A DNA stretch of 64,000 bases from Candidatus Nanopelagicales bacterium (GTDB taxonomy: Bacteria > Actinomycetota > Actinomycetes > S36-B12), in NCBI GenBank assembly GCA_028687755.1, contig JAQTZL010000011.1:1-64000 (forward strand), in the 5' to 3' direction. Shown here piece after piece: positions 1 to 28,404 of this stretch (its first letter is position 1; each line of letters opens with the position of its first letter). The position numbers and the translations under genes are program-made. The notes below the pieces were generated by a model. It saw only the letters and a program-made list of their open reading frames with translations. It was not told where the DNA came from and made no database searches.

Positions 1-152
1 GCCACCGTGGGTTTTGGTGCCCGAACGGGCGACGAGACTGTGAGACTTAACTCCTGCCCGCGTTGCCACAGCTTGGGTCGTCACTTGGTTATCTCGTTCC
101 CAAGACTGTGTCAGCCAAGGTCAGGGAAGCCGTCCAAGTCGCATAACTTCCT

Positions 153-286
153 CGAAAGTGGGCGGAGTGGGTGCAGGCTTGCACCCTCAGGGGAGTGCAG
201 CGGGGGGTGCAGAAGTGACCGTTTGTGAGGGTAACTCGCAGGGCACGCAACCCAAAGATCGTGCATCCTCAGTTTCTCCCCGCTAC
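153..286 (+). repeat. GTGCA-rich 134-nt element, copy 1 (candidate small RNA gene)
   Basis: First of three near-identical elements; the others are at 5150-5282 and 17723-17856. All begin CGAMAGTG and end CTCCCCGCTAC. Within it a near-palindrome (GGGTGCAGGCTTGCACCC) is followed by two more GTGCA motifs, then a TGAGG that can pair with the CCTCA near the end, and a GCGGGG that can pair with the terminal CCCCGC. A -10-like CATAAC lies at 142-147; no clear -35 is visible. A perfect terminator follows 12 nt downstream. No open reading frame is conserved between copies. I read it as a non-coding RNA gene; a DNA-level recombination or protein-binding element is the alternative. Confidence 0.6.
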
Positions 287-297
287 CAAATTAGGTT

Positions 298-325
298 CAA
301 GACCTCCCAAATCTGGGAGGTCTTG
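298..325. terminator. Strong hairpin terminator after element copy 1
   Basis: A perfect 12-bp stem (CAAGACCTCCCA / TGGGAGGTCTTG) closes on an AATC loop. The run downstream on + is only moderately T-rich (TCCTATTTC). It sits directly behind element copy 1 and could also end transcription entering from the GTGCA-rich tract on the right. Confidence 0.75.
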
Positions 326-371
326 TCCTATTTCAGCATGATTTTCAGCCTCTCCCGAGAGGTCAAAGTAG

Positions 372-490
372 GCGGCAGCCTGCACCCGGTGCACCTGCCG
401 GCTGCACCCTCGGTGCAGGCGGCGGCAGTCTTGGATCCGGGTCTCATTGCACCCCGGGGGGAATGCAGCCCTGGGCAATCTGCACCCATA
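372..490. repeat. GTGCA/TGCAC-rich inverted-repeat tract
   Basis: The tract has nested inverted repeats: GCCTGCACC at its left pairs with GGTGCAGGC about 30 nt later. Further TGCACC, TGCAG and GGGGGG motifs follow. Read on the minus strand it shows GGGTGCAG, TTGC, AGGG, TGCA and GGGGTGCA in the same order as the first half of the 134-nt element, so it may be a diverged antisense relative ending at the same terminator. No supportable protein is encoded here. Confidence 0.4.
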
Positions 491-528
491 CTTGCGGTGA
501 GGTTCTGAAGTGCTTGTGTGTGCTTATC

Positions 529-545
529 CGTATCAATTTGATACG
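529..545. promoter_or_regulatory. Inverted-repeat operator upstream of the abiE operon
   Basis: CGTATCA and TGATACG are perfect 7-bp arms with an ATT spacer, ending 9 nt before the AbiEi start codon. AbiEi antitoxins are known to repress their own operon by binding inverted repeats in the promoter, so this is the obvious autoregulatory site. No Shine-Dalgarno is visible, and the short gap suggests a nearly leaderless transcript. Confidence 0.6.
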
Positions 546-554
546 CTTTAGCAC

Positions 555-1124
555 ATGAATGTGAGGGATCGGGTGCTCGAGCGAGCCGTGGAGCAGCACG
601 GGTACATCACCACGCGTGATGCCCGAGCCATTGGCGTGGATCCTGCTGCGTTGCGGGTGATGGCTGCCCGTGGACGGCTGGAGCGCGTGGGTCGGGGTGC
701 TTATCGGGTGCCCGTCTTGCCGCGCACCCGGCATGACGATCTGGCTGAGGCGGTTGCCTGGACGCTGGGCAGGGGCGTGGTTTCCGACGAGTCGGCGTTG
801 GTGCTGCACGGGCTCTCCGACGTCAACCCATCGCGCATTCATCTGACCGTGCCGCGCGCCAATCACCCGCGCGGGGCAGGTGGTGAGCTGTATCGCCTGC
901 ATCGCCGGGACCTTGCGATGGGCGATGTCACCGAGGTCGACGATATTCCCGTCACCACGGTTGCCCGTACCGTCCGAGACTGCTTGGCCGACGGCACCGA
1001 CCCTTACCAACTACGTCTGGCGCTCGATCAAGCCGAAGCCCAAGGTGAACTTCGGCGGGACGAGGCACGGGCATTGCACACTCGGATCGATGAGCGTGGC
1101 ACGAATAGCGGGCGACGGGCATGA
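555..1124 (+). CDS. abiEi: AbiEi-family antitoxin (type IV toxin-antitoxin)
   Basis: A 189-aa protein with an N-terminal winged-helix segment (YITTRDARAIGV near residues 17-28, then a GRLERVGRGAYRV wing near 40-52) and a C-terminal region with the family's SALVLHGLSD and IPVTTVARTVRDCL motifs. AbiEi proteins neutralise the AbiEii nucleotidyltransferase without direct contact and repress the operon. The stop overlaps the start of the toxin gene by 4 nt (ATGA), so the two are translationally coupled. The palindrome at 529-545 is the likely binding site. The family assignment is secure; a role in phage defence is inferred from known AbiE systems. Confidence 0.85.
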   Translation: MNVRDRVLERAVEQHGYITTRDARAIGVDPAALRVMAARGRLERVGRGAYRVPVLPRTRHDDLAEAVAWTLGRGVVSDESALVLHGLSDVNPSRIHLTVPRANHPRGAGGELYRLHRRDLAMGDVTEVDDIPVTTVARTVRDCLADGTDPYQLRLALDQAEAQGELRRDEARALHTRIDERGTNSGRRA

Positions 1125-2002
1125 CGTCGCGTTATGACGCCTCCCCTTCGAATCTGCGGGCATTGCGAGATCGCCTGGCGGCCGCTGCGAAGCGCGAGGG
1201 AATCGTCTTTGGTCGGCTCCAGCAGCACGTCGGTGTTCTAGTCGTGACCCAGTTCTTCTCGGCGCTGACCGACGATCACGGGGATCCGCTGCTTCTGGTC
1301 AAAGGAGGCGTCTCCCTGGAACTGCGGCGAGGCATCCCGCAGTCCCGAACGTCTAAGGTCCTTGACGCCGTCATTCGAGGTGACATCGCTGCCGTCCACG
1401 AAATGCTCGCCGAGGCAGGTGCGCAAGGGTGGGAGGGATTCACTGCCGTGTTCACGCCGCCGGTTGCATTCGAGGTTCCGGTGCTGGGTTCTGATGCATT
1501 CCGATTCACTGCGAAGATCCACTACCAAGGCAAACCCTTCGTGTCGGTACCGATCGAGGTCTCTCCGAGCGAAGCGGGCAACGGCGATTCTTACGACAAG
1601 GTCAGTTCCCAGGCTCTGGCGCTCGTGGGTCTAGCGAACAGCGGGGCAGTGCCGTGCATGACACTGCCATGGCAGGTCGCACAGAAGCTCCACGGTTGCA
1701 CCGAGCCTGTTGATGAGCCACGTGCGAATGATCGAGGGCGCGATCTGGTTGACCTGCAACTTCTCGAAGCGCTGCTAGTTGACGAAACCCTGAGCGAAAC
1801 GCGTGCTGCGTGTGTCGCTGTCTTCGAGGGTCGGAGTAAGCAGCGCTGGCCGCCCGTACTCGTTGCGTTGCCCCATTGGCCGTCAATGTACGTTCGGGCC
1901 ACTGAAGGTCTCGACGAACTCGGTCTCGCCTCCGACATCGAACAAGCCGTCCTGCGAGTCCAGTCCTTCGTCGATCGGATCGACAATTCGATGCGAGATT
2001 GA
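1121..2002 (+). CDS. abiEii: AbiEii/AbiGii-family nucleotidyltransferase toxin
   Basis: A 293-aa protein of the DNA polymerase beta-like nucleotidyltransferase superfamily that pairs with the upstream AbiEi. Visible motifs are KGG near residue 61 and KLHGC followed by NDRGRDLVDL near residues 184-206, matching the conserved second half of AbiEii proteins. The usual metal-binding D-x-D after the GG motif reads V-L-D here (SKVLDAV), so the first acidic residue is missing. The toxin may be weakened, or a neighbouring residue may substitute. It is the last gene of the operon; about 280 nt without a gene separate it from the convergent antiporter gene. Confidence 0.82.
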   Translation: MTSRYDASPSNLRALRDRLAAAAKREGIVFGRLQQHVGVLVVTQFFSALTDDHGDPLLLVKGGVSLELRRGIPQSRTSKVLDAVIRGDIAAVHEMLAEAGAQGWEGFTAVFTPPVAFEVPVLGSDAFRFTAKIHYQGKPFVSVPIEVSPSEAGNGDSYDKVSSQALALVGLANSGAVPCMTLPWQVAQKLHGCTEPVDEPRANDRGRDLVDLQLLEALLVDETLSETRAACVAVFEGRSKQRWPPVLVALPHWPSMYVRATEGLDELGLASDIEQAVLRVQSFVDRIDNSMRD

Positions 2003-2281
2003 CGACGAAAATGCAATGGGGGGTGCTGGATTGATGCCTAATGATCGACTCTCATCGCGGTGAAAGTGTCGCAGGCAGAGTGCGCACTCTGATCATGGAC
2101 GAGCCAATCAGCCCGAATTTGCTCTAGCCGGCGAGAGCGTGGGTGTCACCCGTGGCGGCTTGGTATATGGGATCGCCGTTGGGGATCGGAGCGAGTTTTA
2201 CGAGACCCACGTGTTGCAGATTTGCATATGGTTGTGCGCTCATGCCTGTTGTCCGTTACTCAATACGGCTTGAGAGAGCCG

Positions 2282-3886
2282 TCACTCCTCGGCGATGCGT
2301 TGTGACAGGTGTGCTGCGAATCCGGCCCCGGCTTCGGCGTACACATCGAAAGCGAGATCCACGCCAAGGTTACGGAGGTCCTGCGCATCGTCGGGGAAGG
2401 TCGATGTTGCGGCGATCTTGCCAACGAAGCCGCGCTCGCGTAGCAATTCGACAGCTGCCACGTTGGCTTCGTGTGAAGACATGGTGAGCAGGACCCACGA
2501 CAGATGTTCAACGAGACCATCAGTCCTCGACCAGAACTCGGGATCGGTGGCATCTCCCACGACGCACGTCTGCTGGTGTGCCTGCGCTCGTGCGATGCGC
2601 GCGCTGTCCATGTCAACGCCGAGCACCCGGCCAGGGTGTTGAGCGTTCAGTGCGCTGTAGGCATGCGAGCCAATGCGGCCCATCCCGAAGACTACGTAGT
2701 CGATGTCGAGCACGTGAAGATCTTCATCTCCTGGTAGTCGTCGAGCTCGCTCGTGGCGTTTCAGACTTGCCCGCACGTGTCGGTAGAACACATCCCCTCG
2801 CTCAGCGATAGGCGCGGAGATCGCAAACGATCCGATGATCGCCAAAGCCAAGACGGCGATCCATATCGAAGGAATCCAGCCCACGCCAGCGGCGACAACG
2901 AGCAGGATCAAGCCAAATTCGCTGTAGTTGGCGAGATCCAGGCTCGCCTGCCAAGAGGTGCGCGCTCGCAGGAACCGCATGGAGAACAGTAGGAAATAGA
3001 GCAGGGCCTTGAGCGGCAGTATCAAGATCAGGGCCGCTGCGATGGCGATGCCTATCCCATCCGGGAACTGTGTCATGCCGACGCTGAGAAAGAAGCCCAC
3101 GAGAAAAATGTCCTTCAAGCCCAGCATGTTCTTACTGAGCTCATCGGCCTTCTCGGTGTTGGAAAGGAGGAGTCCGGCAGCAAGCGCCCCTACGGCTCCC
3201 TTGATGCCGACAGCATCGAACAGTGCGCTGCCGGACAGGGCTGCTGCGACACCGAACAGCAGGAGCAACTCACCGTGACCGCTGCTGTTCATCACGCGGA
3301 CGAGAAGTGGACGCGCAGGAATGAGCAGGACCAGAGCTAGAGCCCAGACGCTCGGCCACGCCTGCGCCGATGCGGCCAGGATGATGACGGCAATGAAGTC
3401 CTGTAGGACGAGCACCCCAATCGCCAGTTTTCCGTGTCTGCTCGATGCCGCGCCCCGGTCCTCAAGCACCTTCACTGCGAAGACTGTGCTTGAGAATGAC
3501 AGCGAAATGCCCAGCAGTAATGCAGCACGCAGGTCCAAGCCTGAAAAGGGCCCTGTCTGAGTGAATGCGAGCAACCAGATAACACCGGTGAAGCCGAACG
3601 TGGCCAGCGTGACTTCGAGGGTTCCGACCACCCAGATCTCGGCCTTGAAGAGAGATTTCAGATTGAGCTTGAGTCCGACCGTGAAGAGCAGCAAGATGAT
3701 GCCTACATCGGCGATTTGATCGAGCAGGGCACCTGTTTCGGCACCGAAAGCATGCAGGCCCAAGCCGGCAGCGAGGTACCCCACCAGAGGTGGCAGACCA
3801 ATGGCGCGACACAGGAAGCCCGCAGCAAATGCGATGAGGATCCAGATGGGGTCCGTGAGTGTGGCTACTAGATCATTGGGATCCAT
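2282..3886 (-). CDS. Kef/YbaL-like monovalent cation:proton antiporter (CPA2)
   Basis: A 534-aa inner-membrane protein. Residues about 1-370 form a Na+/H+-exchanger-type bundle of roughly a dozen hydrophobic helices, with GLPPLVGYLAAGLGL in an early helix. Residues about 395-520 form a cytoplasmic TrkA-N domain with a GMGRIG dinucleotide-binding loop. This architecture is that of KefB/KefC/YbaL antiporters, where nucleotide binding gates K+ or Na+ exchange for H+. It lies 99 nt downstream of the universal stress gene on the same strand, so the pair may be one stress-responsive operon. The transported ion cannot be read from sequence. Confidence 0.87.
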   Translation of the reverse strand: MDPNDLVATLTDPIWILIAFAAGFLCRAIGLPPLVGYLAAGLGLHAFGAETGALLDQIADVGIILLLFTVGLKLNLKSLFKAEIWVVGTLEVTLATFGFTGVIWLLAFTQTGPFSGLDLRAALLLGISLSFSSTVFAVKVLEDRGAASSRHGKLAIGVLVLQDFIAVIILAASAQAWPSVWALALVLLIPARPLLVRVMNSSGHGELLLLFGVAAALSGSALFDAVGIKGAVGALAAGLLLSNTEKADELSKNMLGLKDIFLVGFFLSVGMTQFPDGIGIAIAAALILILPLKALLYFLLFSMRFLRARTSWQASLDLANYSEFGLILLVVAAGVGWIPSIWIAVLALAIIGSFAISAPIAERGDVFYRHVRASLKRHERARRLPGDEDLHVLDIDYVVFGMGRIGSHAYSALNAQHPGRVLGVDMDSARIARAQAHQQTCVVGDATDPEFWSRTDGLVEHLSWVLLTMSSHEANVAAVELLRERGFVGKIAATSTFPDDAQDLRNLGVDLAFDVYAEAGAGFAAHLSQRIAEE

Positions 3887-3985
3887 GGTTCAACCTTGTC
3901 GGAAGCCCTAAACTCGGGCAACTGTGACCGAATATGGCGGAGTCCGCGGCGTATCCGCGCGGCCAGTATCGTTGTTGAAGTCGAC

Positions 3986-4813
3986 TCAGTGGCCATGGGC
4001 TAGTAGCACGGAGCATTCTGCGTACTGAGTGACGTCGTTTGCGATCGATCCCATCAGCGCACGAGATAGACCCCGGCGCCCCTTCGTGCCCAGAGCAACA
4101 AAATCCGGGGCCAATGAATCGAGCATGTCGAAGATCGGGTACTTGGCGTTGAGTCGCGACACAGTCGGATCAGCGAGCAGGACTTTCACTGACACCTTTG
4201 CGCCACAGTCGCGCAATATCCGCGCAGAGTTTTCAGCCTTCTCACGTAAGGATGGCACTTCCGAATCCCAATCCAAATCGTGATCAACGGCGAGCACAGT
4301 CACGTGCGTCGTGGCTATCCAAGGCATCTTGACGAGTGCTGCGATGGCGGCATCCGAATGAGGGGAACCGTCGACACAAGCGAGGATTGAATGTATCCGT
4401 TCTGAGCGCCGTGCGATGACAACAGGTGCATTTGGAGACTTCGCCAGCCGCTCAGCAGTGCTGCCCAAATGGAGCGCCTTCATGATTCCGCTCCCGCGCG
4501 CTCCGATAACCGTGAGGCCAACCCCGAGGCCCTCGCTGAGCACGATTCGTGGGTCCCCTGAAGCAGTCAGGTATCGGACCTTTTTCAATTCGCATGACTT
4601 TGGAATCGTCCGAGGGTGTTCGGGCTGCACTTCACGCAAGGGGTCTGAGGTGATCAAGGAGACAAAGCTCGGATCCGGAGGTGTTACGGAGACAATGTCA
4701 AGGTCCCACGTGGGCCATTCGTGTGCAGTGATCCACCTAAATGCGATGTCTGCACCGGCAGAGTGATCGTCGCCAAAGACGATTCGACTCTGCAGGGAGG
4801 GCTCGCATTCCAT
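3986..4813 (-). CDS. Tandem universal stress protein (two UspA domains)
   Basis: A 275-aa cytoplasmic protein with two UspA domains. Each ends in the ATP-binding G-x2-G-x9-G-S motif: GARGSG...LGST in the first and GTKGRRG...MGS in the second. I start it at the ATG at 4813 (MECEPSLQ). An upstream extension is open for 54 more codons, but it is only the antisense of a decayed sulfatase fragment. Actinobacterial tandem Usp proteins have about this length. It precedes the Kef-like antiporter on the same strand; nucleotide binding by both proteins suggests a link, which is inference. Confidence 0.85.
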   Translation of the reverse strand: MECEPSLQSRIVFGDDHSAGADIAFRWITAHEWPTWDLDIVSVTPPDPSFVSLITSDPLREVQPEHPRTIPKSCELKKVRYLTASGDPRIVLSEGLGVGLTVIGARGSGIMKALHLGSTAERLAKSPNAPVVIARRSERIHSILACVDGSPHSDAAIAALVKMPWIATTHVTVLAVDHDLDWDSEVPSLREKAENSARILRDCGAKVSVKVLLADPTVSRLNAKYPIFDMLDSLAPDFVALGTKGRRGLSRALMGSIANDVTQYAECSVLLAHGH

Positions 4814-4849
4814 GGATTCAGTTAACCACAGTGGGGATACATTAGATAG

Positions 4850-5070
4850 TGACCCAAGCCTTTGAGCGCTCCGAGTGACCGACATCGGAAGTAGCGTGAG
4901 AGAAATTGATCGCGACGGAGAGGAAGAACTCTTCAATCTCATCAAAGATCCTTTCGAGATGGACAACGTGATCACGAGCGCAGACCCAGAGATCGTGAGG
5001 CAACTACGTCATCAACTCAAGGCACTCGCCGCATGAACAGGAGCCTCATGTCTAGTGGCGGATGCAATGC
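4850..5070 (+). pseudogene. Decayed 3' fragment of a sulfatase gene
   Basis: From about 4914 the + strand encodes DGEEELFNLIKDPFEMDN and DPEIVRQLRHQL, nearly matching the C-terminus of the intact sulfatase (DGEEELFDLINDPYEMDN, DPEIVRQLRQQL at 17440-17560). The homology continues past an in-frame TGA into SCLVADAMPN, matching SCRVADAMRN. About 20 codons upstream it shifts frame. No start, signal peptide or catalytic part remains. The small-RNA-like element follows, in the same order as behind the intact sulfatase, so a sulfatase-plus-element unit was duplicated and one copy decayed. Confidence 0.85.
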
Positions 5071-5149
5071 CCAACGGCGTGGTGAATTCGTATACGCATT
5101 GATGGCTTTGCGCTGCTAAAGGTTGAAACGTCCCTGAGGTTAGATTGGT

Positions 5150-5282
5150 CGACAGTGCGCGGGGTGGGTGCAGGCTTGCACCCTCAGGGAAGTGCAGAAA
5201 GGGGTGCAGAAGTGCTCGTTTGTGAGGGTAACTCGCAGGGCACGCAACCAAAGCCCTTGCATCTTCAGCTGCTCCCCGCTAC
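5150..5282 (+). repeat. GTGCA-rich 133-nt element, copy 2 (candidate small RNA gene)
   Basis: Aligns over its full length with the elements at 153 and 17723, including GGGTGCAGGCTTGCACCC, GGGGTGCAGAAGTG, TTTGTGAGGGTAACTCGCAGGGCACGCAA split across two blocks, and the final CTCCCCGCTAC. Where copies 1 and 3 pair TGAGG with CCTCA, this copy has CTTCA, which still pairs through one G-U. A TTAGAT hexamer at 5140-5145 could be a -10 box. Unlike the other copies it is not followed by a strong terminator but by an operator-like palindrome. Confidence 0.58.
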
Positions 5283-5285
5283 AGA

Positions 5286-5297
5286 TTGAACGTTCAA
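5286..5297. promoter_or_regulatory. TTGAACGTTCAA palindrome
   Basis: A perfect 12-bp palindrome directly behind element copy 2. The same 12-mer is the core of the 16-bp palindrome at 45356-45371, which lies between two divergent redox genes. The reuse suggests a common regulator, perhaps of MarR or TetR type; none is adjacent. The nearest downstream gene is the sulfotransferase-like CDS about 210 nt away. Confidence 0.4.
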
Positions 5298-5505
5298 CTA
5301 CATGGGCCTTGGCCCAGCAGTGGGTCCCTGTGAAAATCGGGGATCCTTGGTCATTTCGGGGGTCCACGCGCCGATGCTGGTGAAGCACAGTTGTGAGTGC
5401 TCGCAGCAGCTATTCAACTGTGTGCGCGTGCTCGGCTACGGATCCGAGTTGCGCTTGTACTCGCAGGTGCTGACGAAGCCCAGGTGCAGCCCTTGTAGGT
5501 AGGGT

Positions 5506-13891: not shown

Positions 13892-13990
13892 TCAGTTGAC
13901 GGCATGTCCTGCCGTGCCGACCAGACTTCCCGGCGCTCCATTTGCAGCATAACTGTCGCGAGCGATGAGGTTCGCCACGTGCCTGTTGGG

Positions 13991-14410
13991 CTAGGCGCTG
14001 CCTAGTGACTCTTCGGCGCGTTGGAGAGCCGTGCTGAGTTGTGTGGCAGCGTCCAGTTGCAATTGGAGACGCACTCGACGTTGGTCCAGGTCCTGATGTA
14101 AAGCGGTCAGCTTTGCCAGAAGTGCGGATCGGGCGGCCGAAGTCAGGCTTGGGGCGCCAGCGGCGTCGAGGACGTGCACGAGTTCGCGCATCTGATCAAG
14201 GGTGAATCCCAAAGGCTTGAGGGTCTTGAGCACTCGAAGTCGTTCTTCCTCGAGTGGCCCGAACAGGCGAAACCCTCCTGGGCTACGGGTGGAAGGGACC
14301 ACGAGTCCAACTTCCTCGTAGTAGCGCACGGTCCGCATGCTCAGTCCTACGCGCTCTGCGAGGACGCCGATCTGCACGAGAACGCCGTCTCCAACTCCGT
14401 TGCCGTCCAT
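13991..14410 (-). CDS. MerR-family transcriptional regulator
   Basis: A 139-aa regulator with the MerR winged helix at its N-terminus (IGVLAERVGLSMRTVRYYEEVGLV, split around residues 12-36, then GGFRLFGPLEEERL) and a long dimerisation coiled coil from about residue 85 to the end. There are no Cys clusters, so it is not a metal sensor of the classic kind. Its start overlaps the SulP stop by one base (TGATG), so it is coupled to the transporter it probably controls. A matching dyad lies in the SulP promoter (15961-15990). Confidence 0.88.
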   Translation of the reverse strand: MDGNGVGDGVLVQIGVLAERVGLSMRTVRYYEEVGLVVPSTRSPGGFRLFGPLEEERLRVLKTLKPLGFTLDQMRELVHVLDAAGAPSLTSAARSALLAKLTALHQDLDQRRVRLQLQLDAATQLSTALQRAEESLGSA

Positions 14411-15894
14411 CAGTGTCCCGAGGTCAAACGGCCTTTGAGTCGCGTACGCATCGCGGTGCTGTACTCGTTCACTCCGATCACCTCCACGCTCTTGTTGCGC
14501 TTTTCGTACTTGTAGATAATCGCATCGAGTGCGGCAACGGTGGAGGCATCCCAGATGTGTGCACCAGTCATGTCAATAATCACTTCGTCAGGGTCGTTGG
14601 CGAAGTCGAACTGGTACACCAGATCATTGCTGGACGCAAAAAACAGCTCGCCATGCACGAAGTAGGTGATCGAAGTCCCGTCGACGCTTGGCTGGCGGTC
14701 GACTGTGACCAAGTGGGCCACGCGCCGGGCGAACAGCACCGTTGCCGTCAAGACGCCGACAACAACTCCGATGGCTAGATTGTGGGTGAATACCGTGGCG
14801 ATCACGGTGGCGAGCATGACGGTGGTCTCGCTCTTAGGCATGTGGGGCAGCGACTTCAGGCTGTGCCAGTCGAAGGTCGAATAGGCCACGATGATCATCA
14901 CTGCTACCAGCGCAGCCATGGGGATGACCTCGACGACGGGCCCCAGCGCGACAACCAGGGTCAGCAGCAGGACGCCTGCGAGGAACGTGGACAGGCGGGT
15001 CCGTGCCCCGCTGGTCTTCACGTTGATCATGGTCTGCCCGATCATCGCGCAGCCGCCCATACCGCCAAAGAAGCCGGTGACGATGTTGGCGATGCCCTGA
15101 CCAAAAGACTCCCGGGTCTTGTTGGAGTGGGTGTCAGTGATGTCATCGACGAGCTTGGCGGTCATCAGCGATTCCATGAGCCCGACAAGCGCCACCGCGA
15201 GGGCGAAGGGAGCGATGATACGCAAGGTCTCAAACGTGAGCGGAACGTCAGGCAGCCCCAGCGTCGGCAGGCTGGTAGGCAGTTCACCTTCACCGCCGAC
15301 GTTTGGCACGGTCAAGCCGAGCGTCACAGTCGCGATGGTCAGCAGCACGACTGCAACCAGAGGGGCAGGGATGATGCTGGTGACGCGTGGCAGAAAAAGC
15401 ATGATGACGATCCCAATCGCCACCATCGGATACACCAATGCTGGCACGTCAATCAGGTATGGCAGTTGGGCGCTGAAGATTAGGATGGCCAACGCGTTGA
15501 CGAAACCGACCATAACGCTACGTGGAACGAACCTCATGAGTCGCGCAACTCCCGCAAGGGCGAGAGCGACCTGGAAGATCCCTCCGAGGATCACGGCGGC
15601 AACCAGATACCCCAGGCCGTAATCGCGAACCAGTGGCGCAACAACCAGGGCAATTGCCCCGGTGGCTGCGGAGATCATTGCCGGCCGCCCACCGGTGAAG
15701 GCGATCGTGACGGCCATGGTGAACGATGCGAACAGGCCTACTTGCGGATCAACGCCGGCCAGGATCGAGAATGAAATCGCCTCCGGGATCAACGCGATAG
15801 CAACGACCAATCCGGCGAGAAATTCGGTTCGGAAGACCCTCGGGCTCAGCCACGTGGGTCGGGACAGCGATGTGGGACGTAGTGCCAATGACAC
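14410..15894 (-). CDS. SulP-family anion transporter with STAS domain
   Basis: A 494-aa membrane protein starting at GTG 15894. Residues about 20-385 form the SLC26/SulP transmembrane core ([43 protein letters not shown] in two parts), and residues about 395-490 form a cytoplasmic STAS domain ([32 protein letters not shown]). Bacterial relatives carry sulfate or, as in BicA-type proteins, bicarbonate with Na+. The neighbouring nhaA would supply a Na+ gradient, and the divergent sulfatase releases sulfate, so both substrates fit. Confidence 0.9.
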
Positions 15895-16068: not shown

Positions 16069-17628
16069 GTGCCTGTGCCAGTGAGTCGACGATGGTCAAC
16101 AGCTATAGCCGCGATCCTCACGTCCGTTGCGATCGCCGCAGTGATGGTCCTGGGGCAGATTGCCTCGAACTCATCCCGCAGTGGAAATTCAGATCCGTCT
16201 GTTGTGAACTCGGCCCAGTCCTTTCGCACTACCGGCTCCCTTGCGGACATCAAGAATGTGGTCTTGCTGTTGGCCGATGATCTGGACTGGTCAACGTTTG
16301 ACGAAGTGCCCCGCCTGGCTGCGCTCAAAGAGCAGGGCACGACCTTGACGAATTTCGTGGTCACGAATTCGCTGTGCTGCCCCTCACGAGCCTCACTCCT
16401 GCGCAGCCAATACGTGCACAACCACCAAGTCGTATCCAACGTGCCTCAAACCGGCGGCGGTTGGCAGACGTTCTACAACCGTGGGCTGGAACACGATTGT
16501 CTACCCACTTGGCTACAGGAAGCCGGAGTGAACACCTCACTGTTCGGCAAGTACATGAATGGATTTCCCGGACCGTCGGTTGCACGGAACTACATTCCGC
16601 CGGGCTGGAATTCGTTCGTGACCTCCATATCGAAGAATCAGTCGTACAAGGGCTACGACTACACGCTCAATCGAAATGGCGAACTGGAGGACTACGGGCA
16701 CAGCCCGGAGGATTTCCTCAACGATGTGCTGACTCAGGCTGCAGTTGAGCACCTGGAATCGGTGACATCCCCGTTCTTCATGGAGTTCGCGTCCTACCAG
16801 CCGCACACCCCAGCGCCTGTCGCAGATCGCCACATTGGCAGTCATCTCGGTGAAGGCGTACCCAGAACGCCGTCCTTCAATGTTCATGGAAGTAGCGAAG
16901 TCGATTGGCTGGCAGCTCAACCAGACAACACAGCGACTCGCGTTGCAATGTTCGATGATCGCTGGCGCAAAGGCCTGGAGTCCACCGAATCGATCGCCGA
17001 CACCTACGACGCGCTCGTCAGCGCATTGCAGCGCGCTGGACACTTGGACGACACACTGATTGTGGTTACTTCCGACAACGGCTATCACGCTGGCACCCAC
17101 AGGCTTGGAACGGGAAAGAACACGGCCTACCGCGAAGACTCTGTCGTTCCGGCAGTACTCATCGGCCCAGGAATCGCCCAAGGAACAATCATCAGCAAGA
17201 TCACGTCAATGGTGGACCTCGGACCGACCATCAGCTCACTGCTGGGAGCCGAGACACCCTCATGGGTTGACGGGCGCAGTCTTCTCACTTTGATCTCACA
17301 CCAGTCCAAGACGCCCTGGCGCACTGCGGCGCTCAATGAGCGGCTACGTCAGACGAAACCTGGTGACCCGGACTATGAGCCGTACCAAGCCCCCGCATTC
17401 CACGCGAGCCGCAGCGAACAATGGCTCTTCGTGCAATACGACGACGGAGAGGAAGAGCTCTTCGATCTCATCAACGATCCATACGAGATGGACAACATCA
17501 TCGCGACTACTGACCCTGAAATCGTTCGACAACTACGACAACAGTTGAATGCCTTGTCAGAGTGTTCTGGAGAGTCCTGCCGCGTGGCAGATGCAATGCG
17601 CAATTATCCGATGAACCCGCTTCCTTGA
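16069..17628 (+). CDS. Secreted sulfatase
   Basis: A 519-aa type I sulfatase with an N-terminal signal anchor (AIAAILTSVAIAAVMVLG). The active-site signature is CCPSRASLL at residues 103-111; Cys103 would become formylglycine. Metal ligands are visible in LLLADDLDW (near 67-75) and VTSDNGYH. The family resembles GlcNAc-6-sulfatase and related choline/arylsulfatases, and would remove sulfate esters from external substrates. The start is GTG 16069 with AGAGGAAC upstream. It is divergent from the SulP transporter. A decayed duplicate of its 3' end lies at 4850-5070. No formylglycine-generating enzyme is in the window. Confidence 0.92.
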   Translation: MPVPVSRRWSTAIAAILTSVAIAAVMVLGQIASNSSRSGNSDPSVVNSAQSFRTTGSLADIKNVVLLLADDLDWSTFDEVPRLAALKEQGTTLTNFVVTNSLCCPSRASLLRSQYVHNHQVVSNVPQTGGGWQTFYNRGLEHDCLPTWLQEAGVNTSLFGKYMNGFPGPSVARNYIPPGWNSFVTSISKNQSYKGYDYTLNRNGELEDYGHSPEDFLNDVLTQAAVEHLESVTSPFFMEFASYQPHTPAPVADRHIGSHLGEGVPRTPSFNVHGSSEVDWLAAQPDNTATRVAMFDDRWRKGLESTESIADTYDALVSALQRAGHLDDTLIVVTSDNGYHAGTHRLGTGKNTAYREDSVVPAVLIGPGIAQGTIISKITSMVDLGPTISSLLGAETPSWVDGRSLLTLISHQSKTPWRTAALNERLRQTKPGDPDYEPYQAPAFHASRSEQWLFVQYDDGEEELFDLINDPYEMDNIIATTDPEIVRQLRQQLNALSECSGESCRVADAMRNYPMNPLP

Positions 17629-17722
17629 TGACGCATCTGATGCAGTGCGAGCGGGTTGAGCGATGAACCGAGTTGAATTCCGCTAATGCCTGAGCCAGGA
17701 AGAGTGTCGGCCGCTTACGATT

Positions 17723-17856
17723 CGAAAGTGTGCGCGGTGGGTGCAAGCTTGCACCCCCGGGGGAGTGCAGACGGGGGTGCAGAAGTGGTCTTTTGTGAGG
17801 ACAACTTGCAGGGCACGCAACCCAACGATCGTGCATCCTCAGTATCTCCCCGCTAC
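17723..17856 (+). repeat. GTGCA-rich 134-nt element, copy 3 (candidate small RNA gene)
   Basis: Third copy of the element. The first hairpin is here a perfect 18-bp palindrome (GGGTGCAAGCTTGCACCC). GACGGGGGTGCAGAAGTG, TTTTGTGAGG, GCAGGGCACGCAACCCAA, GATCGTGCATCCTCAGT and TCTCCCCGCTAC follow as in copy 1. TGAGG/CCTCA pairing is preserved. A classic intrinsic terminator begins 5 nt after the element, so a transcript of about 170 nt would end cleanly. It follows the intact sulfatase gene by about 95 nt. Confidence 0.65.
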
Positions 17857-17860
17857 GAAT

Positions 17861-17897
17861 ATGAGGACCAGCCCTCTGGGCTGGTCCTCATTCTTTT
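17861..17897 (+). terminator. Intrinsic terminator after element copy 3
   Basis: A perfect 14-bp stem (ATGAGGACCAGCCC / GGGCTGGTCCTCAT) with a TCT loop is followed by TCTTTTG. This is a strong rho-independent terminator for a + transcript covering the element, and possibly for the sulfatase upstream. Confidence 0.88.
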
Positions 17898-18352
17898 GAG
17901 CTCCTGATGTTCGTTCGAGCATTCATTGATACGCCAAAATCTGACACCGGTTGGTATTGATCGAGATCGTGCGGGCAAAGTTGCCGTGAGCACTACCTAC
18001 ACGGCCTAGTTGCTCGATCGAAGGAGCAACGAAGACCGAGCCTGCTCGATAGTGCGATCACGGTTTGAATGTTGTTGGACGCTCGGATATGTCCTAGGCT
18101 CCCGGGACACGCGTTTCGGGTCGGATTCGCGTTTTCGCACAACAGCGGTCTGAGGGGAGCGCCCGTGCTGTCTTCAGTCTTGCCATCGGCGGAGGTACAG
18201 CAACGCAAGGTGCATCCGGCGTATGAGGAGTGGGAAACGGCGGTAAATCTTGGCCGAATATGGTTGTGGAGAGTCCGCGGTAAGGGCCTAGGTAGCGGCC
18301 ATGGCAGGCTTGGGTCGCTTCAGGGTTAGCACGACTATTCATAAAGGATTTC
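17898..18352. other. Intergenic region before the ole cluster
   Basis: No supportable gene. A hairpin (GTTGCTC / GAGCAAC with an 8-nt loop) sits at 18009-18030. The oleA ribosome-binding site (AAAGGA) is at the right end. The stretch also marks the change from the G+C-rich accessory part on the left to the more A+T-rich coding style on the right. Confidence 0.5.
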
Positions 18353-19375
18353 ATGACCGGCAATGCAATGTTCGGATACCGCGATACAGCGGTGTTGTCA
18401 GTGACGGCAATTGATGGTCCTATCGTGGTCACATCTGCCGAAATAGAAACTCAGCTCGCAGAAACTTTGGAGCGAGTAGGGCTTCGATCGGGTCTGTTGG
18501 AATCTCTGGCCGGGATCAGCGAGCGTCGCTGGTGGCCAACTGATGTTTCCTTTGCTGACGCTGCAGCAATGGCCGGCGCTAAGGCGATTGCTGAGTCCGG
18601 AATCGATCCAAGTCAGATTGGCCTACTGATCGATACCTCGGTAAGTCGCAGTCATTTGGAGCCTGCTGCATCAGTTGATGTGCACGAACAACTTGGGCTT
18701 GGTACGCACTGCATGAATTTCGATGTCGGTAATGCGTGTTTGGGATTTCTTAATGGCATGCATCTTGCAGCAACGATGATTGATTCTGGGCAGATTGATT
18801 ATGCGGTCGTCGTTGATGCCGAAGGAACTCGATACACGCAAGAAACAACAATTCAGCGGCTGCAAAACTCAAATGCCACGCGCAGTGAAGTGATTTCACA
18901 ATTCGCGACGCTTACGTTGGGTTCTGGTGCAGCAGCGATGGTGCTTGGTCGTGCATCCCTTCACCCTGAAGGCCACCGCATGATTGGCGGCGTTACTCGA
19001 GCCGCAACGCAACACAACAAGTTATGCATTGGTGATCTCGAGAGGATGGTTACCGATTCCACGAAGCTTCTCAATGCCGGAGTTGAACTTGCTGTTGATA
19101 CTTGGCAAGACGCAAAGGCGCGTTTTGACTGGTCGAATCTGGATGGCTACTTCATTCATCAAGTTTCTAAGGTGTACACGGATGCAATTACCACTGCACT
19201 TGAAATTGATCCCGCACGCACTCCAGTGATCTTCCCAACCCGCGGCAATATCGGCCCAGCATCCGTACCGTTCACCCTCGCTGAACATCAGGCCAATCTC
19301 GTCTCTGGTCAACGCATTGCGCTGATGGGAATTGGTTCTGGTTTGAACTCGGCCATCATCGAGATTGTCTGGTAG
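18353..19375 (+). CDS. oleA: OleA: acyl-CoA head-to-head condensing thiolase
   Basis: A 340-aa thiolase-fold enzyme resembling ketoacyl synthase III. The nucleophilic Cys lies in VGNACLGFLNG (near residue 125), the catalytic His in GYFIHQVS, and the Asn in RGNIGPASVPF. OleA joins two fatty acyl-CoA molecules to a 2-alkyl-3-ketoacid, the first step of long-chain olefin synthesis. The gene starts the cluster oleA-oleBC-oleD, and its stop directly abuts the OleBC start. AAAGGATTTC before the ATG is the ribosome-binding site. Sequence alone would also allow another KAS-III, but the neighbours settle it. Confidence 0.92.
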   Translation: MTGNAMFGYRDTAVLSVTAIDGPIVVTSAEIETQLAETLERVGLRSGLLESLAGISERRWWPTDVSFADAAAMAGAKAIAESGIDPSQIGLLIDTSVSRSHLEPAASVDVHEQLGLGTHCMNFDVGNACLGFLNGMHLAATMIDSGQIDYAVVVDAEGTRYTQETTIQRLQNSNATRSEVISQFATLTLGSGAAAMVLGRASLHPEGHRMIGGVTRAATQHNKLCIGDLERMVTDSTKLLNAGVELAVDTWQDAKARFDWSNLDGYFIHQVSKVYTDAITTALEIDPARTPVIFPTRGNIGPASVPFTLAEHQANLVSGQRIALMGIGSGLNSAIIEIVW

Positions 19376-19378
19376 TTG

Positions 19379-21898
19379 ATGCGCGGTCCTTCAGCACCTG
19401 CGCCGGCGACATTGCCACCTGCTGATCTGCCTGGGCTTGACCCGTCGTGGTCGCGCCTGATCACCTGTGATGACGGTGATGGAATCGCACGCACGTGGCA
19501 CGTTCTTGATACGCAGACTCCCAACCCGCGGGTAACTGTCCTTGCGGTTCACGGTAATCCGACGTGGTCATATTTATGGCGTCGAGTACTAGCTTCTGCT
19601 CCAGCGGATGTGCGAGTAGTTGCGGTAGATCAGTTAGGAATGGGTTTCAGTGAACGGTTATCCACGCAGCGCAGACTTGGCCAACGCATTGATGATCTTG
19701 GTCGTCTAGCCGCTGCATTGGAAATAGATGGGCCTGTTGTGGTGCTTGCCCATGATTGGGGCGGGCCGATCTCGGTGGGATGGGCGCTTGCTCACCGATT
19801 GCAGGTTCGGGGATTGGTGTTAACCAACACTGCCGTGCATCAACCAAGTGACAGTGGCATTCCACGGGTGATTGCTATGGCCCGCGTCGCTCCACTGCGT
19901 ACTTTCAATACGCAACGGTTGCCAATTTTCCTTCGCATCACCACAGCGCTGAGTGGTTCTCGAATGACGCCGGAAATTCGACATGCGTTTTGGGCGCCAT
20001 ACATCAAAGGTGACCGTCGTGCAGCGATTAGCGATTTCGTTGAAGACATTCCCGTCAAGCCAAGTCATCCCAGTGCCGCAATTTTGGATGAAGTTGCTGA
20101 AGGCATTCGTGGTCTTCAAGTTCCCACATTGATGCTGTGGGGTCCAGGTGATCCAGTGTTTAGCGATCGCTATCTCAACGACTTGCGCGAGCGCATGCCA
20201 CACGCACAAGTGCATCGATATGAAGGTGCTCGACACCTCGTCATCGAAGATGCACCGTCACTTGTTGATGATTTTTGGATGTGGATGAGTGATCTCGATG
20301 CAACACGTCACGATGTTGATGAATCAACGGTTGAGTTTGACGGAAGTTTTCTCGAAGAGTCCCTTCCGCTGTGGCATGCGCTTGAAGAACGGGCGCGTAC
20401 TCACCCCCATGAAGATGCGATCGTTGAACCAGCAGGTAGTGGCCATTGGAAACGAATTTCTTGGCGGCAGTTGCATCACACAGTTGAGTTGCTTGCTCGA
20501 GGATTAGCAGGCAGGGGTATCAAGCGAGGTGACCGTGTTGCAGTACTCGTGACGCCAGGTGCAGATCTCATTGCAACGATTTATGCGTGTTGGCGCATTG
20601 GTGTCACGGTAGTGATCGTCGATGCAGCCTTAGGTGTTCGCGGAATTCGACGTGCCTTGCGCAGTGCTCGACCTACTTCAATTATTGCTATCCCAAAGGC
20701 AATTCCGGTTGTCCAAGGCCTTGGCGCGAACGTGATTGCCTCTCGGCAATTGGCGCGGATCGCTGCCGAAGGGAAGTCGCAAGTAAGCCCTGCACACGCA
20801 CAGACAAATGATGAAGCCATTGTCGTGTTCACTTCTGGATCCACTGGCCCGGCAAAGGGTGTGGTGTATCAACATGAGCACATTGCTCGCACCAGGGATC
20901 TGATCGTTGCGCACCTGGACATCACCGAACGCGACGCGCTTGTCGCCGCATTCGCACCGTGGGCGGTACTTGGCCCGGCATTAGGCATTGCCTCGGTCAT
21001 TCCTGACATGGATGTCACGCGACCTGCGACATTAACTGCCAAGGCTTTAGGTGAAGCAGTTCATGCTGTTGGCGGCACGGTTCTTTGGGGTTCACCAGCT
21101 GCGCTTCGTGCAGTTGTTGCAACGCAAGATGGTTTGCGTAAAAATTCAGAACTGAACTCCTTGCGACTCGTGATGGGCGCAGGTGCTCCTGTGTCACGCG
21201 AACTGTTGCAAGGAATGAAGGATCTGTGTCCCACAGCTGATGTGCGCACACCATATGGAATGACTGAAGTATTGCCAGTATGCGATGTTTCTCTGGAAGA
21301 AATAATTTCAGCCGGTGACGGGCCAGGAGTACTCGTTGGTCATCCAGTTGATGGTGTTGAGGTTCGGATCAGTGCTCTTGATCATCAAGGAATGGCTACT
21401 GGCCCACTGAGTGACTCAGCTTTGGTCTTGGGTGAGGTTGTAGTTCGTGCGCCGCACATGAAAGATCGCTACGACTCCTTATGGGCTACTCAGCGGCGCA
21501 GTAGTCGCGATGCTGGCTGGCATCGCACTGGTGACGTAGGTGAATTGGACGATTTCGGTCGCCTGTGGATAGGCGGTCGACTCGCGCATGTGATCACCAC
21601 TGCATCGGGCCCTATTGCCCCTGTCGCTATCGAACAACGCATGGGTGCAATTCCTGACGTAGTTCAGGCCGCCGCAGTTGGCGTAGGGCCATTGGGTAAC
21701 CAGCAAGTGGTCATTATTTTGGAAACCAATCGCGTAGTTGATCTCGACCTCATTGATGAGGTTCGCTCGTTGGCACAAATGCCCGTTGCGGCAGTTCTTG
21801 CACGCACGAGCTTGCCAGTAGATATTCGTCATCGATCCAAGGTTGATCGCAGGGCGTTGGCAGTGTGGGCAAATCAATTGTTGGCAGGGCGCTCGTGA
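19379..21898 (+). CDS. oleBC: OleBC fusion: beta-lactone decarboxylase plus beta-lactone synthetase
   Basis: An 839-aa two-domain protein. Residues about 1-305 form an alpha/beta hydrolase of the haloalkane-dehalogenase type (HGNPTWSYLWRRVL; nucleophile Asp in AHDWGGPISVGWA; His in GARHLVIED). Residues about 320-839 form an AMP-forming ligase-like domain (FTSGSTGPAKGVVYQHEH; TPYGMTEVLPV; GWHRTGDVGELDDFGRLWIGGR in two parts). OleC makes a beta-lactone from the hydroxy acid using ATP, and OleB then removes CO2 to give the cis-olefin. OleBC fusions are known from actinobacteria. I prefer ATG 19379 over the TTG just before it. It overlaps oleD by 4 nt. Confidence 0.93.
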   Translation: MRGPSAPAPATLPPADLPGLDPSWSRLITCDDGDGIARTWHVLDTQTPNPRVTVLAVHGNPTWSYLWRRVLASAPADVRVVAVDQLGMGFSERLSTQRRLGQRIDDLGRLAAALEIDGPVVVLAHDWGGPISVGWALAHRLQVRGLVLTNTAVHQPSDSGIPRVIAMARVAPLRTFNTQRLPIFLRITTALSGSRMTPEIRHAFWAPYIKGDRRAAISDFVEDIPVKPSHPSAAILDEVAEGIRGLQVPTLMLWGPGDPVFSDRYLNDLRERMPHAQVHRYEGARHLVIEDAPSLVDDFWMWMSDLDATRHDVDESTVEFDGSFLEESLPLWHALEERARTHPHEDAIVEPAGSGHWKRISWRQLHHTVELLARGLAGRGIKRGDRVAVLVTPGADLIATIYACWRIGVTVVIVDAALGVRGIRRALRSARPTSIIAIPKAIPVVQGLGANVIASRQLARIAAEGKSQVSPAHAQTNDEAIVVFTSGSTGPAKGVVYQHEHIARTRDLIVAHLDITERDALVAAFAPWAVLGPALGIASVIPDMDVTRPATLTAKALGEAVHAVGGTVLWGSPAALRAVVATQDGLRKNSELNSLRLVMGAGAPVSRELLQGMKDLCPTADVRTPYGMTEVLPVCDVSLEEIISAGDGPGVLVGHPVDGVEVRISALDHQGMATGPLSDSALVLGEVVVRAPHMKDRYDSLWATQRRSSRDAGWHRTGDVGELDDFGRLWIGGRLAHVITTASGPIAPVAIEQRMGAIPDVVQAAAVGVGPLGNQQVVIILETNRVVDLDLIDEVRSLAQMPVAAVLARTSLPVDIRHRSKVDRRALAVWANQLLAGRS

Positions 21899-24731: not shown

Positions 24732-25640
24732 ATGTCTGTGCAGATCCGCGGTAGCGTCTCACCTGTTTTACTCAATCCGCTAAAACCTGCACAGGCATTC
24801 GATGACTTCCTCACTGCTGCAGCACCCATCAGCGCGACGCAATCAGAATGGACCGCGCACGATGGCTCAATGCCAGCGTTATTTCTAGGACACGGCGCAC
24901 CACCACTTTTTGATGATCCGCTCTGGATAAGTGAACTCTTTGCCTGGTCGCAATCAATGCCAAAGCCCCGTGCGATCCTGGTTGTCTCAGCGCATTGGGA
25001 GTCCTCGCCGATGTTGTTGTCAGCAACTTCACCGAACACTGATGTCGTGTACGACTTTGGTGGGTTCGCTGATCGTTATTACAAAATGCGATACGACACC
25101 CCTGATGCAAGTGGCCTTGCACGCAGTGTCGTTGCATCATTGTCGGAAATTGGGCCAGTGCATCAGCATGCATCGCGCGGGTTGGACCATGGTGCATGGA
25201 TTCCGCTGAAGATCATGTATCCGGGCGCTGATATTCCGGTACTGCAACTAAGTCTGCCTACATCCGATCCAGTCAAACTCTTGGCGCTTGGATCACGTCT
25301 AAAGGCCCTTCGCGGCGAAGGCGTATTAATCCTTGGTTCGGGTTTCATGACTCATGGAGTAGGTCTTGCAACTCCCGAGACAATCACGGGTAAAGCTGTG
25401 TCAAGCTGGTCAACTGAGTTCTCAACTTGGGCATTAGAGGCGTTGGCAGCCGGTGACATTGATAGGTTGATCAAGTATCGCGAGGACGCGCCAGGGATGC
25501 CGTATGCGCATCGCACCGCAGAACATTTTGTGCCCCTTTTTGTCACCCTGGGGGCAGGAGACAAGGTCGATCAAGGTATCCAGCCGGTCATTGATGGGTA
25601 CTGGGGCGGTCAATCCCGTGCATCATTTCAGACTCAATAA
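24732..25640 (+). CDS. Extradiol dioxygenase of the YgiD/DOPA 4,5-dioxygenase (LigB) family
   Basis: A 302-aa LigB-type protein. Likely metal ligands are in FLGHGAPPLF (near residue 56), VVSAHWESSP (near 96) and GLDHGAWIPLK (near 155). The motifs MPALF and APGMPYAHRTAEHFVPLF near the C-terminus are typical of bacterial YgiD-like enzymes, which open catechol rings such as that of DOPA using Fe(II) or Zn(II). A paralogue is encoded at 44473-45336. It lies 21 nt behind the GNAT gene; the physiological substrate is not evident. Confidence 0.88.
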   Translation: MSVQIRGSVSPVLLNPLKPAQAFDDFLTAAAPISATQSEWTAHDGSMPALFLGHGAPPLFDDPLWISELFAWSQSMPKPRAILVVSAHWESSPMLLSATSPNTDVVYDFGGFADRYYKMRYDTPDASGLARSVVASLSEIGPVHQHASRGLDHGAWIPLKIMYPGADIPVLQLSLPTSDPVKLLALGSRLKALRGEGVLILGSGFMTHGVGLATPETITGKAVSSWSTEFSTWALEALAAGDIDRLIKYREDAPGMPYAHRTAEHFVPLFVTLGAGDKVDQGIQPVIDGYWGGQSRASFQTQ

Positions 25641-27884: not shown

Positions 27885-28404
27885 AGATCACCTGTGCCTG
27901 GTTGAGCACTTCGGTTTTGAGTGCAGGATGCAGCGCTTTCCTGCTTACCAAGTCGACTTTTTTACCGAACAACGTTTCAAGTTCATCGCTGAGGTCGTTG
28001 ATGGACCATCCAAGTTGCACACCGGGTTTGAGGGTGTAGAGCAGATCGATATCACTTGTTTCGCGACCCTGACCCCGTGCGGTTGATCCAAAGACAGCAA
28101 GCTCGGCAAGTCCGTAACGCACGCATATGTCGATGAGTGACTGCTGGTTCCATGTACGCAGGAACTGTGAGGTCTGAACGCTTGCTGGAATTTCAACGCT
28201 GACGGTGATCCCGGTGAGGCGCATAAAGTCGAACATCCTGACCAAGGCAAGCGAATTCTTTCCGGTCTCGAGTTCAGAGACGTAGGCCTGGGTAATTCCA
28301 AGTTCTTGGGCTACTTGGCCTTGTGAGAGGTGGAGTCGCCGACGGGCGTGCTTGAGGAAGGTACCGAGTTCTTGAGCGTCACGGACCGTCGATTTGGCGT
28401 TCAT
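27874..28404 (-). CDS. HTH-MNT fusion antitoxin (XRE helix-turn-helix plus nucleotidyltransferase)
   Basis: A 176-aa protein with two domains. Residues about 10-75 form an XRE-type HTH (LSQGQVAQELGITQAYVSELE). Residues about 85-176 form an MNT nucleotidyltransferase with an exact G-S-x10-D-x-D motif (GSTARGQGRETSDID). In MntA/HepT systems the MNT domain AMPylates HepT; here the same chain can also repress the promoter. A dyad (TATACG / CGTATA, 28418-28435) sits 14 nt upstream of its start. The upstream antitoxin and downstream toxin overlap by 11 nt. Confidence 0.87.
   Translation of the reverse strand: MNAKSTVRDAQELGTFLKHARRRLHLSQGQVAQELGITQAYVSELETGKNSLALVRMFDFMRLTGITVSVEIPASVQTSQFLRTWNQQSLIDICVRYGLAELAVFGSTARGQGRETSDIDLLYTLKPGVQLGWSINDLSDELETLFGKKVDLVSRKALHPALKTEVLNQAQVIYAA

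Follow-up and report, generated by a model that had tools for sequence, protein, structure and literature searches.

A tandem array of small cassettes behind the initiator tRNA-Met gene of a Nanopelagicales genome, bounded by a putative tRNA-imitating attachment site

Organization of the locus

Nanopelagicales-type actinobacteria of fresh waters are abundant organisms with small genomes; to our knowledge, little is known of how they gain genes. The stretch of DNA analysed here (the window) comprises positions 1 to 64,000 of contig C11 (JAQTZL010000011.1) of a Candidatus Nanopelagicales bacterium, the 2.5 Mb genome of which is assembled in 21 contigs. Three copies of a 134-nt element are found on the plus strand of the window, at positions 152–286, 5149–5282 and 17722–17856, and BLAST of this genome revealed no further element on C11 beyond 17856. 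All three copies were recovered both by repeat search and by BLAST, in which the copy at 17722 matched 5149–5282 with 83% identity (E 2.2e-33); the repeat search delineated a three-copy family at 152–306, 5149–5303 and 17722–17876. The first copy is attachment-site-like: its 3′ half resembles initiator tRNA-Met (tRNA-fMet) and it ends with CCCCGCTAC, the core.

The window opens within a unit. Positions 1–286 (plus strand), which include the first element, are 99.3% identical to G008:C35:7053–7338 and represent the right end of a cassette that is truncated where the contig begins. The following region, 287–480 (plus strand), is the left end of the next cassette; it contains a terminator-like hairpin and is 87% identical to genome G001 from the exact core onward. 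An arm-like repeat, AAAGTAGGCGG, is located within it at about 365–375, and a cluster of seven GTGCA/TGCAC motifs at 381–481. The cargo that follows on the plus strand is a bacterial type IV toxin–antitoxin pair, consisting of an AbiEi antitoxin (555–1124; PADLOC AbiEi, 1.9e-67) and an AbiEii nucleotidyltransferase toxin (1121–2002; Pfam 8.7e-15, PADLOC 1.8e-75). Directly after AbiEii, at 2003–2030 (plus strand), the decayed first ~28 nt of an element can be recognized by eye, at the point where the element starts in G001 and G016. The first 1.7 kb of the unit 287–5282 correspond to the AbiE cassette of these two genomes, with the element shortened to ~28 nt; the homology to G016 extends just past its element start and that to G001 halts at the element. 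Further downstream, the minus strand encodes a Na+/H+ exchanger with a TrkA-N domain (2282–3886) and a universal stress protein (3986–4813, in an open reading frame extending to 4975), after which come the C-terminal remnant of a sulfatase with an in-frame TGA (4911–5095, plus strand; repeat search and alignment) and the second element. The unit 287–5282 is a fusion of an AbiE cassette, the exchanger, the stress protein and the sulfatase end.

The sequence behind the second element (5283–5380, plus strand) is a left end of family F1, which is common to other elements and to tRNA-fMet genes of relatives. The sulfatase cassette contains a SulP sulfate permease gene (14410–15894, minus strand; Pfam 1.1e-51), accompanied by an open reading frame for 139 aa (13991–14410), and the gene for an intact sulfatase of 519 aa (16069–17628, plus strand; Pfam 2.8e-40, match to G003). 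A terminator-like hairpin (17857–17898, plus strand) opens the sequence after the last element of the contig. Right after that element, at 18353–21898, lie a ketoacyl-synthase III-like gene and a hydrolase/AMP-ligase fusion, which presumably are like OleA and OleBC of olefin synthesis. The window also contains a 59-nt inverted repeat (25485–25543 and 44567–44625), the arms of which are 78% complementary and 19 kb apart.

The sulfatase unit and its remnant

The initial annotation had described the sulfatase C-terminus, a spacer of about 100 nt and the element as a unit present once intact and once decayed, and both repeat search and BLAST bear out this order. The intact unit (17442–17856) consists of the sulfatase 3′ end, the ~100-nt spacer and the 134-nt element, and its counterpart occupies 4911–5282. 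The remnant had been placed at 4850–5282; the unit is indeed there, but the homology begins near 4911, not 4850. The two sulfatase ends were aligned by the repeat search over 162 nt (4913–5074 against 17442–17603) at 75% identity. The spacer is present in both units, but its sequence is not conserved (17 of 49 aligned bases equal, 44 gap columns). In the remnant, the sulfatase homology crosses an in-frame TGA (LAA*TGASCLVADAMPN vs LSECSGESCRVADAMRN), and the remnant is therefore, as originally read, the end of a true pseudogene. The view that sulfatase end and element move as one unit is corroborated by sister genomes in which they occur jointly: G003 carries the sulfatase unit (89.3% identity over 2,817 bp, with the match terminating precisely at the core, position 17856 in the window), and in G002 the same block of sulfate permease and sulfatase is located between two elements.

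Divergence within the unit is unequal, with the remnant and the window's intact unit sharing 83.6% identity in the element and 69.5% in the coding part. The initial annotation had taken this to suggest that the coding part decayed while selection kept the element, a conclusion that does not follow. When compared across the same 187 coding nt, three intact sulfatases are 69.5%, 69.5% and 70.1% identical to the remnant and 80.7%, 65.2% and 64.2% identical to one another; in two of the three pairs the intact genes differ as much as the remnant does. Since the remnant is as similar to living sulfatases as these are to one another, its coding part has not decayed faster than these diverge. Its differences from the window's intact sulfatase number 9, 5 and 26 at codon positions 1, 2 and 3, respectively, an excess at the third position. 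The remnant lost the rest of its gene recently, by deletion. The elements of the sulfatase units are 82.8–88.9% identical in all pairs; they are constrained, as had been suggested, but as an end site common to all cassettes, conserved because every cassette carries it. The region 4850–5282 is best read as the surviving right end of a second, decayed sulfate-permease/sulfatase cassette, the remainder of which was deleted.

The element resembles the initiator tRNA

Eight elements are present in this genome, all on the plus strand and downstream of its only initiator tRNA-Met gene: the three in the window and five on contig C2, at 376215, 408066, 427611, 431581 and 432420. C2 ends 109 bases past its last element, and its last 122 nt are 99.2% identical to G008:C35:3502–3623, the left end of a cassette. 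As a single 3.8-kb cassette of G008 has one end matched by the end of C2 and the other by the start of C11, the contigs are probably neighbours, and about 3.4 kb are probably missing between them.

The tRNA-Met(CAT) gene upstream of the array was matched by the element profile and confirmed by ARAGORN; we take the three G-C pairs of its anticodon stem to mark it as the initiator tRNA. From the D-loop up to the acceptor stem, the 3′ half of the element tracks this tRNA, with the same terminal CCCCGCTAC; the CAT anticodon is lost. Single elements score a median of 20 in local alignment to the tRNA, as compared with 14.4 ± 2.3 for shuffled sequences, 122 of 4000 of which reach that median. The likeness to the tRNA is clear for the profile and modest for single copies. 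The core was found at 67 elements and 32 distinct tRNA flanks, the repeat having otherwise diverged from the tRNA. A phage or plasmid origin of the element was rejected: its exact pattern is absent from IMG/VR, and BLAST of the element against phages and plasmids produced no match.

Arrays in related genomes

The element is present in 13 of 59 genomes, the one under study included in the 59, and scanning named genomes for its pattern yielded a further four; hosts found by the scan include Candidatus Nanopelagicales STC_133 and Actinomycetota E19_metabat.bin.114. The counts that follow refer to 16 genomes, namely 12 of the 13 matching relatives and the four found by pattern; they leave aside G044, with one 50-nt partial match, and some further element-bearing contigs of G060 and G061. 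The stretches analysed from these genomes contain 88 elements. On each of the 19 contigs with at least two elements, all elements are on one strand, and in all seven contigs that hold both tRNA and element (including G025:C11) the tRNA-fMet gene is upstream on the same strand. An unbroken example is G059:C1, where the tRNA (138154–138230) is followed by ten elements within 51 kb.

The 52 units bounded on both sides range from 815 to 31,836 bp, with a median of 3,093 bp; the longest of them, reaching 31.8 kb, exceed the length of a simple cassette and probably arose by fusion. In 61 of 69 cases, an element and the gene preceding it share a strand (three more elements have no preceding gene on their piece and are left aside), and 35 of these 61 genes end at most 30 nt away from the element. 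Forty proteins of the window and arrays were scanned with Pfam and ten with PADLOC. In addition to AbiEi/AbiEii and SulP with sulfatase, the cargo includes HigBA, Phd/ParE, SIR2-HerA, MMPL with TetR, amidohydrolase, Rieske and ABC/FtsX proteins; a recombinase is missing from most units. A HigBA cassette turns up at many sites, its right end coinciding exactly with the core, and another cassette is the first behind the tRNA in G008 and lies far down the array in the genome studied here (G000).

Junctions and left ends of the cassettes

The 90 nt following the core are at least 75% identical to some tRNA-fMet flank for 39 of 63 elements, a level reached by none of the 58 controls (maximum 0.66). 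The 80 nt preceding the core are only 51–62% identical in the 14 best element–tRNA pairs. Sharing of sequence after the core, and not before it, is the trace that site-specific insertion into the end of the tRNA would leave. Moreover, the tails are exchanged where tRNA and element have only ~10 exact bases in common, and homologous recombination is therefore no explanation. The sequences just past the core form families common to elements and tRNA genes; these were defined by expressions composed after inspection of the sequences. The swapped tails fold at −38.0 and −38.4 kcal/mol per 85 nt, as against −26.8, and terminator-like tails were counted in 30/57 and 18/29 cases, as against 5/86 controls. 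These strong terminator-like folds suggest that each arriving cassette supplies the tRNA with its terminator.

Arm-like repeats were recognized in only 20 of 91 left ends. Repeats of 11 bp are prominent over left ends in general (16 vs 0 in control stretches), and the element carries their motif again at its 5′ border, as would be expected of arm sites. The arm types at the left and right ends of the same unit were not associated (6,1 / 3,1; Fisher p = 1). Several left-end families contain a motif, TCAACGGTGT...CGGTACCTCGCAAGTT, 100–250 nt past the core (e.g. L048:10328 and L185:9915; also L209, about 13990–14030, and L214), which occurs inverted in the recombinase leader of G002 and G016.

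A candidate recombinase

The array contigs contain no PF00589 match above the cut-off except a short fragment on G032:C34, one on G061:C38 and those of a classical island in G025. In G020, the gene right behind the tRNA encodes a protein of 669 aa with a weak PF00589 match (21 bits). Relatives of this protein were identified in 5 of 59 genomes by single-protein search and in 9 of 394 genomes from the class by profile search. Thirteen of the 14 checkable loci follow a tRNA-fMet gene (eight: G020:C250, G002, G012, G354, G226, G324, G249 and G013, the last a fragment), a 3′ fragment of tRNA-fMet (G395) or an array element (four: G020:C139, G060:C324, G061:C188 and, in the genome under study, C2:377183–377656). 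The 14 loci exclude G016:C159, G020:C174 and G354:C212, where the upstream side is beyond the stretch, as well as G060:C224 and two matches that are too weak, G059:C3 (7e-6) and L193 (8e-4). At G043:C121:47686 (L216, L230), a homologue of the recombinase is found beside tRNA-Pro(CGG), not tRNA-fMet, possibly as a result of a change of target. Among the 16 array genomes, a full-length recombinase is present in three (G002, G016 and G020), a fragment in three (G000, G060 and G061; that of G000 is an N-terminal piece only), a weak match in one (G059) and none in the other nine. The intact recombinase unit of G002 has no element within 24 kb on its contig.

Searches against PHROGs assigned the first part of the protein to integrases (E 4e-13 to 8e-19, four members) and part of its tail to excisionases. 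The residues R, K, R, H and Y, to which we presumptively assign the catalytic roles, are invariant in sets of 6 and of 10 homologues; some members have Lys in place of the first His of HxxR. A first structure model (pLDDT 57.6) was dropped in favour of a second, built with 10 homologues (pLDDT 73.1, pTM 0.46), and the fold predicted in the latter resembles those of archaeal Xer, Tn1549 and lambda integrases (Z 13–14). The tail has weak local structural matches to BldC and to Xis of phage Pukovnik. Between the tRNA and the recombinase of G002 and G012 there are 11-bp tandem repeats, starting near +75. The candidate enzyme is a divergent tyrosine recombinase of 670–800 residues with a C-terminal, excisionase-like helix-turn-helix tail.

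Two other groups of enzymes were considered as movers and rejected. In the stretches of ordinary phage integrases that were analysed, the tRNAs called are other tRNAs, several stretches have no tRNA in reach, and there is no arm motif; the only tRNA-fMet core among them is that of G025. Among 11 genomes, two have serine recombinases, in neither case on an array contig.

Proposed growth of the array

In our view, the 134-nt element probably serves small integrative cassettes as their right-hand attachment site, and these cassettes form a tandem stack behind the single initiator tRNA-Met gene. Insertion of a cassette would take place at the terminal bases of the tRNA gene, or of an element that imitates this end. 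The 3′ end of the tRNA would be retained, the left end of the incoming cassette would become the new terminator of the tRNA, and the element at its right end would form the boundary to the older cassettes, so that repeated insertion would produce a one-directional array. The inserting enzyme would be the fused tyrosine recombinase/excisionase that several relatives encode right after the tRNA; given that the genome under study keeps only an N-terminal fragment of it, its array is probably fixed or served by an outside enzyme. From the arrangement, the precise junctions, the shared cassettes and the neighbourhood of the recombinase, which are directly visible in the genomes, we infer a recombination reaction in which this enzyme would be paired with this site, a circular intermediate, and movement of cassettes between cells. 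A broader proposal, which we make tentatively, is that of a cassette-capture platform with an origin independent of integrons, an initiator-tRNA gene as its permanent entry site, a dedicated, tRNA-imitating 135-bp site on the cassettes and a fused integrase–excisionase that would both insert and remove cassettes.

The strongest competing explanation, which we judge unlikely, is ordinary tandem accretion, whereby unrelated islands entered a popular tRNA end via various phage- or Xer-type integrases and were later shuffled by homologous recombination across the elements, the fusion recombinase being just one visitor. This scenario would fit the G025 island, a classical one that uses the same tRNA and has its own integrase as well as a tRNA fragment of 35 nt. 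It would also fit the several array genomes in which strong PF00589 matches number only two and resemble XerC and XerD, and the fragments of other phage integrases near two elements. However, conservation of the 135-nt element extends across genera and over cargo of unrelated kinds, and unrelated islands would not share it; the stretch common to tRNA and element is too short for homologous exchange, yet flanks swap exactly there; and the fusion recombinase is found at the tRNA or element in all but one of the 14 loci.

Far less probable is the proposal of the initial annotation that the element is a small-RNA gene, forming a family duplicated with its host gene and kept by selection on the RNA. 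The element shows good conservation and has a terminator-like hairpin behind it, and three copies each fold somewhat better than shuffled sequences (z −1.6 to −1.9), but RNAalifold detected no consensus structure among 43 full-length copies (3 pairs, −0.99 kcal/mol), and no Rfam family matched the element at gathering scores. The conserved entity therefore looks like a DNA site. The terminator behind the element belongs to the next cassette; terminators vary among copies and are common to the tRNA-fMet genes of relatives. In addition, all copies are on one strand, behind one tRNA. On present sequence evidence, the element is best read as an attachment site.

Relation to known systems

Additive islands anchored at tRNA and tmRNA genes are already known, and the array is therefore a variant of this kind, tRNA-anchored additive islands being the closest known one. 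The part of PMC10872708 available to us describes an additive flexible genomic island of Ca. Methylopumilus at tRNA-Lys, with a 20-nt tRNA copy as the boundary, and the corresponding part of PMC7771536 describes tRNA-anchored additive islands of Ca. Actinomarinales. As portrayed in those parts, these islands and the array share serial addition of cassettes at a tRNA, repeats of the tRNA 3′ end as boundaries, variable small cargo and aquatic, streamlined hosts. The array differs in its conserved 135-nt site, which is clearly diverged from the tRNA, in its location at the initiator tRNA and in its candidate dedicated recombinase. The Dehalococcoides ssrA islands, according to an excerpt of PMC3146451, are likewise arranged in tandem behind one single-copy RNA gene, with an extra conserved motif beside the repeat, and 15 of 31 are without an integration module; they differ in having a tmRNA target, a 20-bp repeat and the serine recombinases DsiB/DsiA.

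No description of such an array, element or fused recombinase was found in the open-licence literature. Tycheposons are tRNA-bounded cargo elements with a tyrosine recombinase, and are large single elements. Those of Methylophilaceae at tRNA-Met(cat), as presented in the same portion of PMC10872708, resemble the array in tRNA-bounded cargo, tyrosine recombinase and tRNA-Met site, and that portion mentions no tRNA-imitating conserved end site; unlike large single tycheposons, the array is a stack of units with a median size of 3.1 kb. The candidate enzyme resembles lambda- and Tn1549-type integrases in its predicted core-binding and catalytic fold, its N-terminal three-strand-plus-helix domain and the five invariant residues. 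Unlike these integrases, it is about twice as long and includes several C-terminal excisionase/MerR-like helix-turn-helix domains in the same chain.

With chromosomal integrons and CALIN, as far as the consulted part of PMC11389934 covers them, the array shares small cassettes on one strand, the order of gene then site, toxin–antitoxin cargo, a tyrosine recombinase at the head, here in some genomes, and the existence of many arrays without the enzyme. The array works like an integron, but by strict test it is none. That it could be a strict integron with attC sites has next to no probability: the one-stranded array, gene ends abutting the site, toxin–antitoxin and defence cargo and a recombinase at the array head would agree with it, but GTTRRRY is found near the 3′ end of 0 of 43 elements, there is no attC consensus or conserved hairpin, a tRNA gene stands in place of attI as the primary site, the recombinase is of another type, with an arm-binding-like domain and an excisionase tail, its fold is no closer to IntI4 (Z 12.9) than to lambda or Tn1549 integrases, and the cassettes have their own left end and terminator.

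If the attachment-site reading is correct, a one-directional store of defence, toxin–antitoxin and metabolic cassettes behind an essential tRNA would provide integron-like gene uptake. It would also permit a clean test of array evolution, with entry site and boundaries known, a candidate enzyme named and cassettes traceable from genome to genome. The integrase–excisionase fusion merits study in its own right.

A second site type and neighbouring islands

In G013, two 160-nt repeats (82.5% identical) unlike the element are located behind tRNA-fMet, at C55:42870–43060 and 28021–28209 (L220, L221), with a recombinase remnant between them; they end with CCCCGC(T/C)AC on the tRNA strand. This second element type, which shares the core and the orientation of the first, is absent from the other 58 genomes searched. 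The presence of an unrelated repeat in the same plan means that the plan is not tied to one site sequence, and, as two or more unrelated kinds of site exist, the platform may occur generally in actinobacteria.

The classical island of G025 (C11:140271–177750) carries arsenic genes and two integrases and resides in the same tRNA-fMet; it is closed by the 35-nt tRNA fragment, and an element follows 0.8 kb further on. At G061:C212:5690–6332 (L190), tRNA-Pro(GGG) is called about 430 nt upstream of an element. Arrays were also encountered on contigs deposited as Bifidobacterium breve MAGs (L150, L152, L154, L158, L160 and L164); these labels look wrong, and the contigs seem to derive from aquatic actinobacteria.
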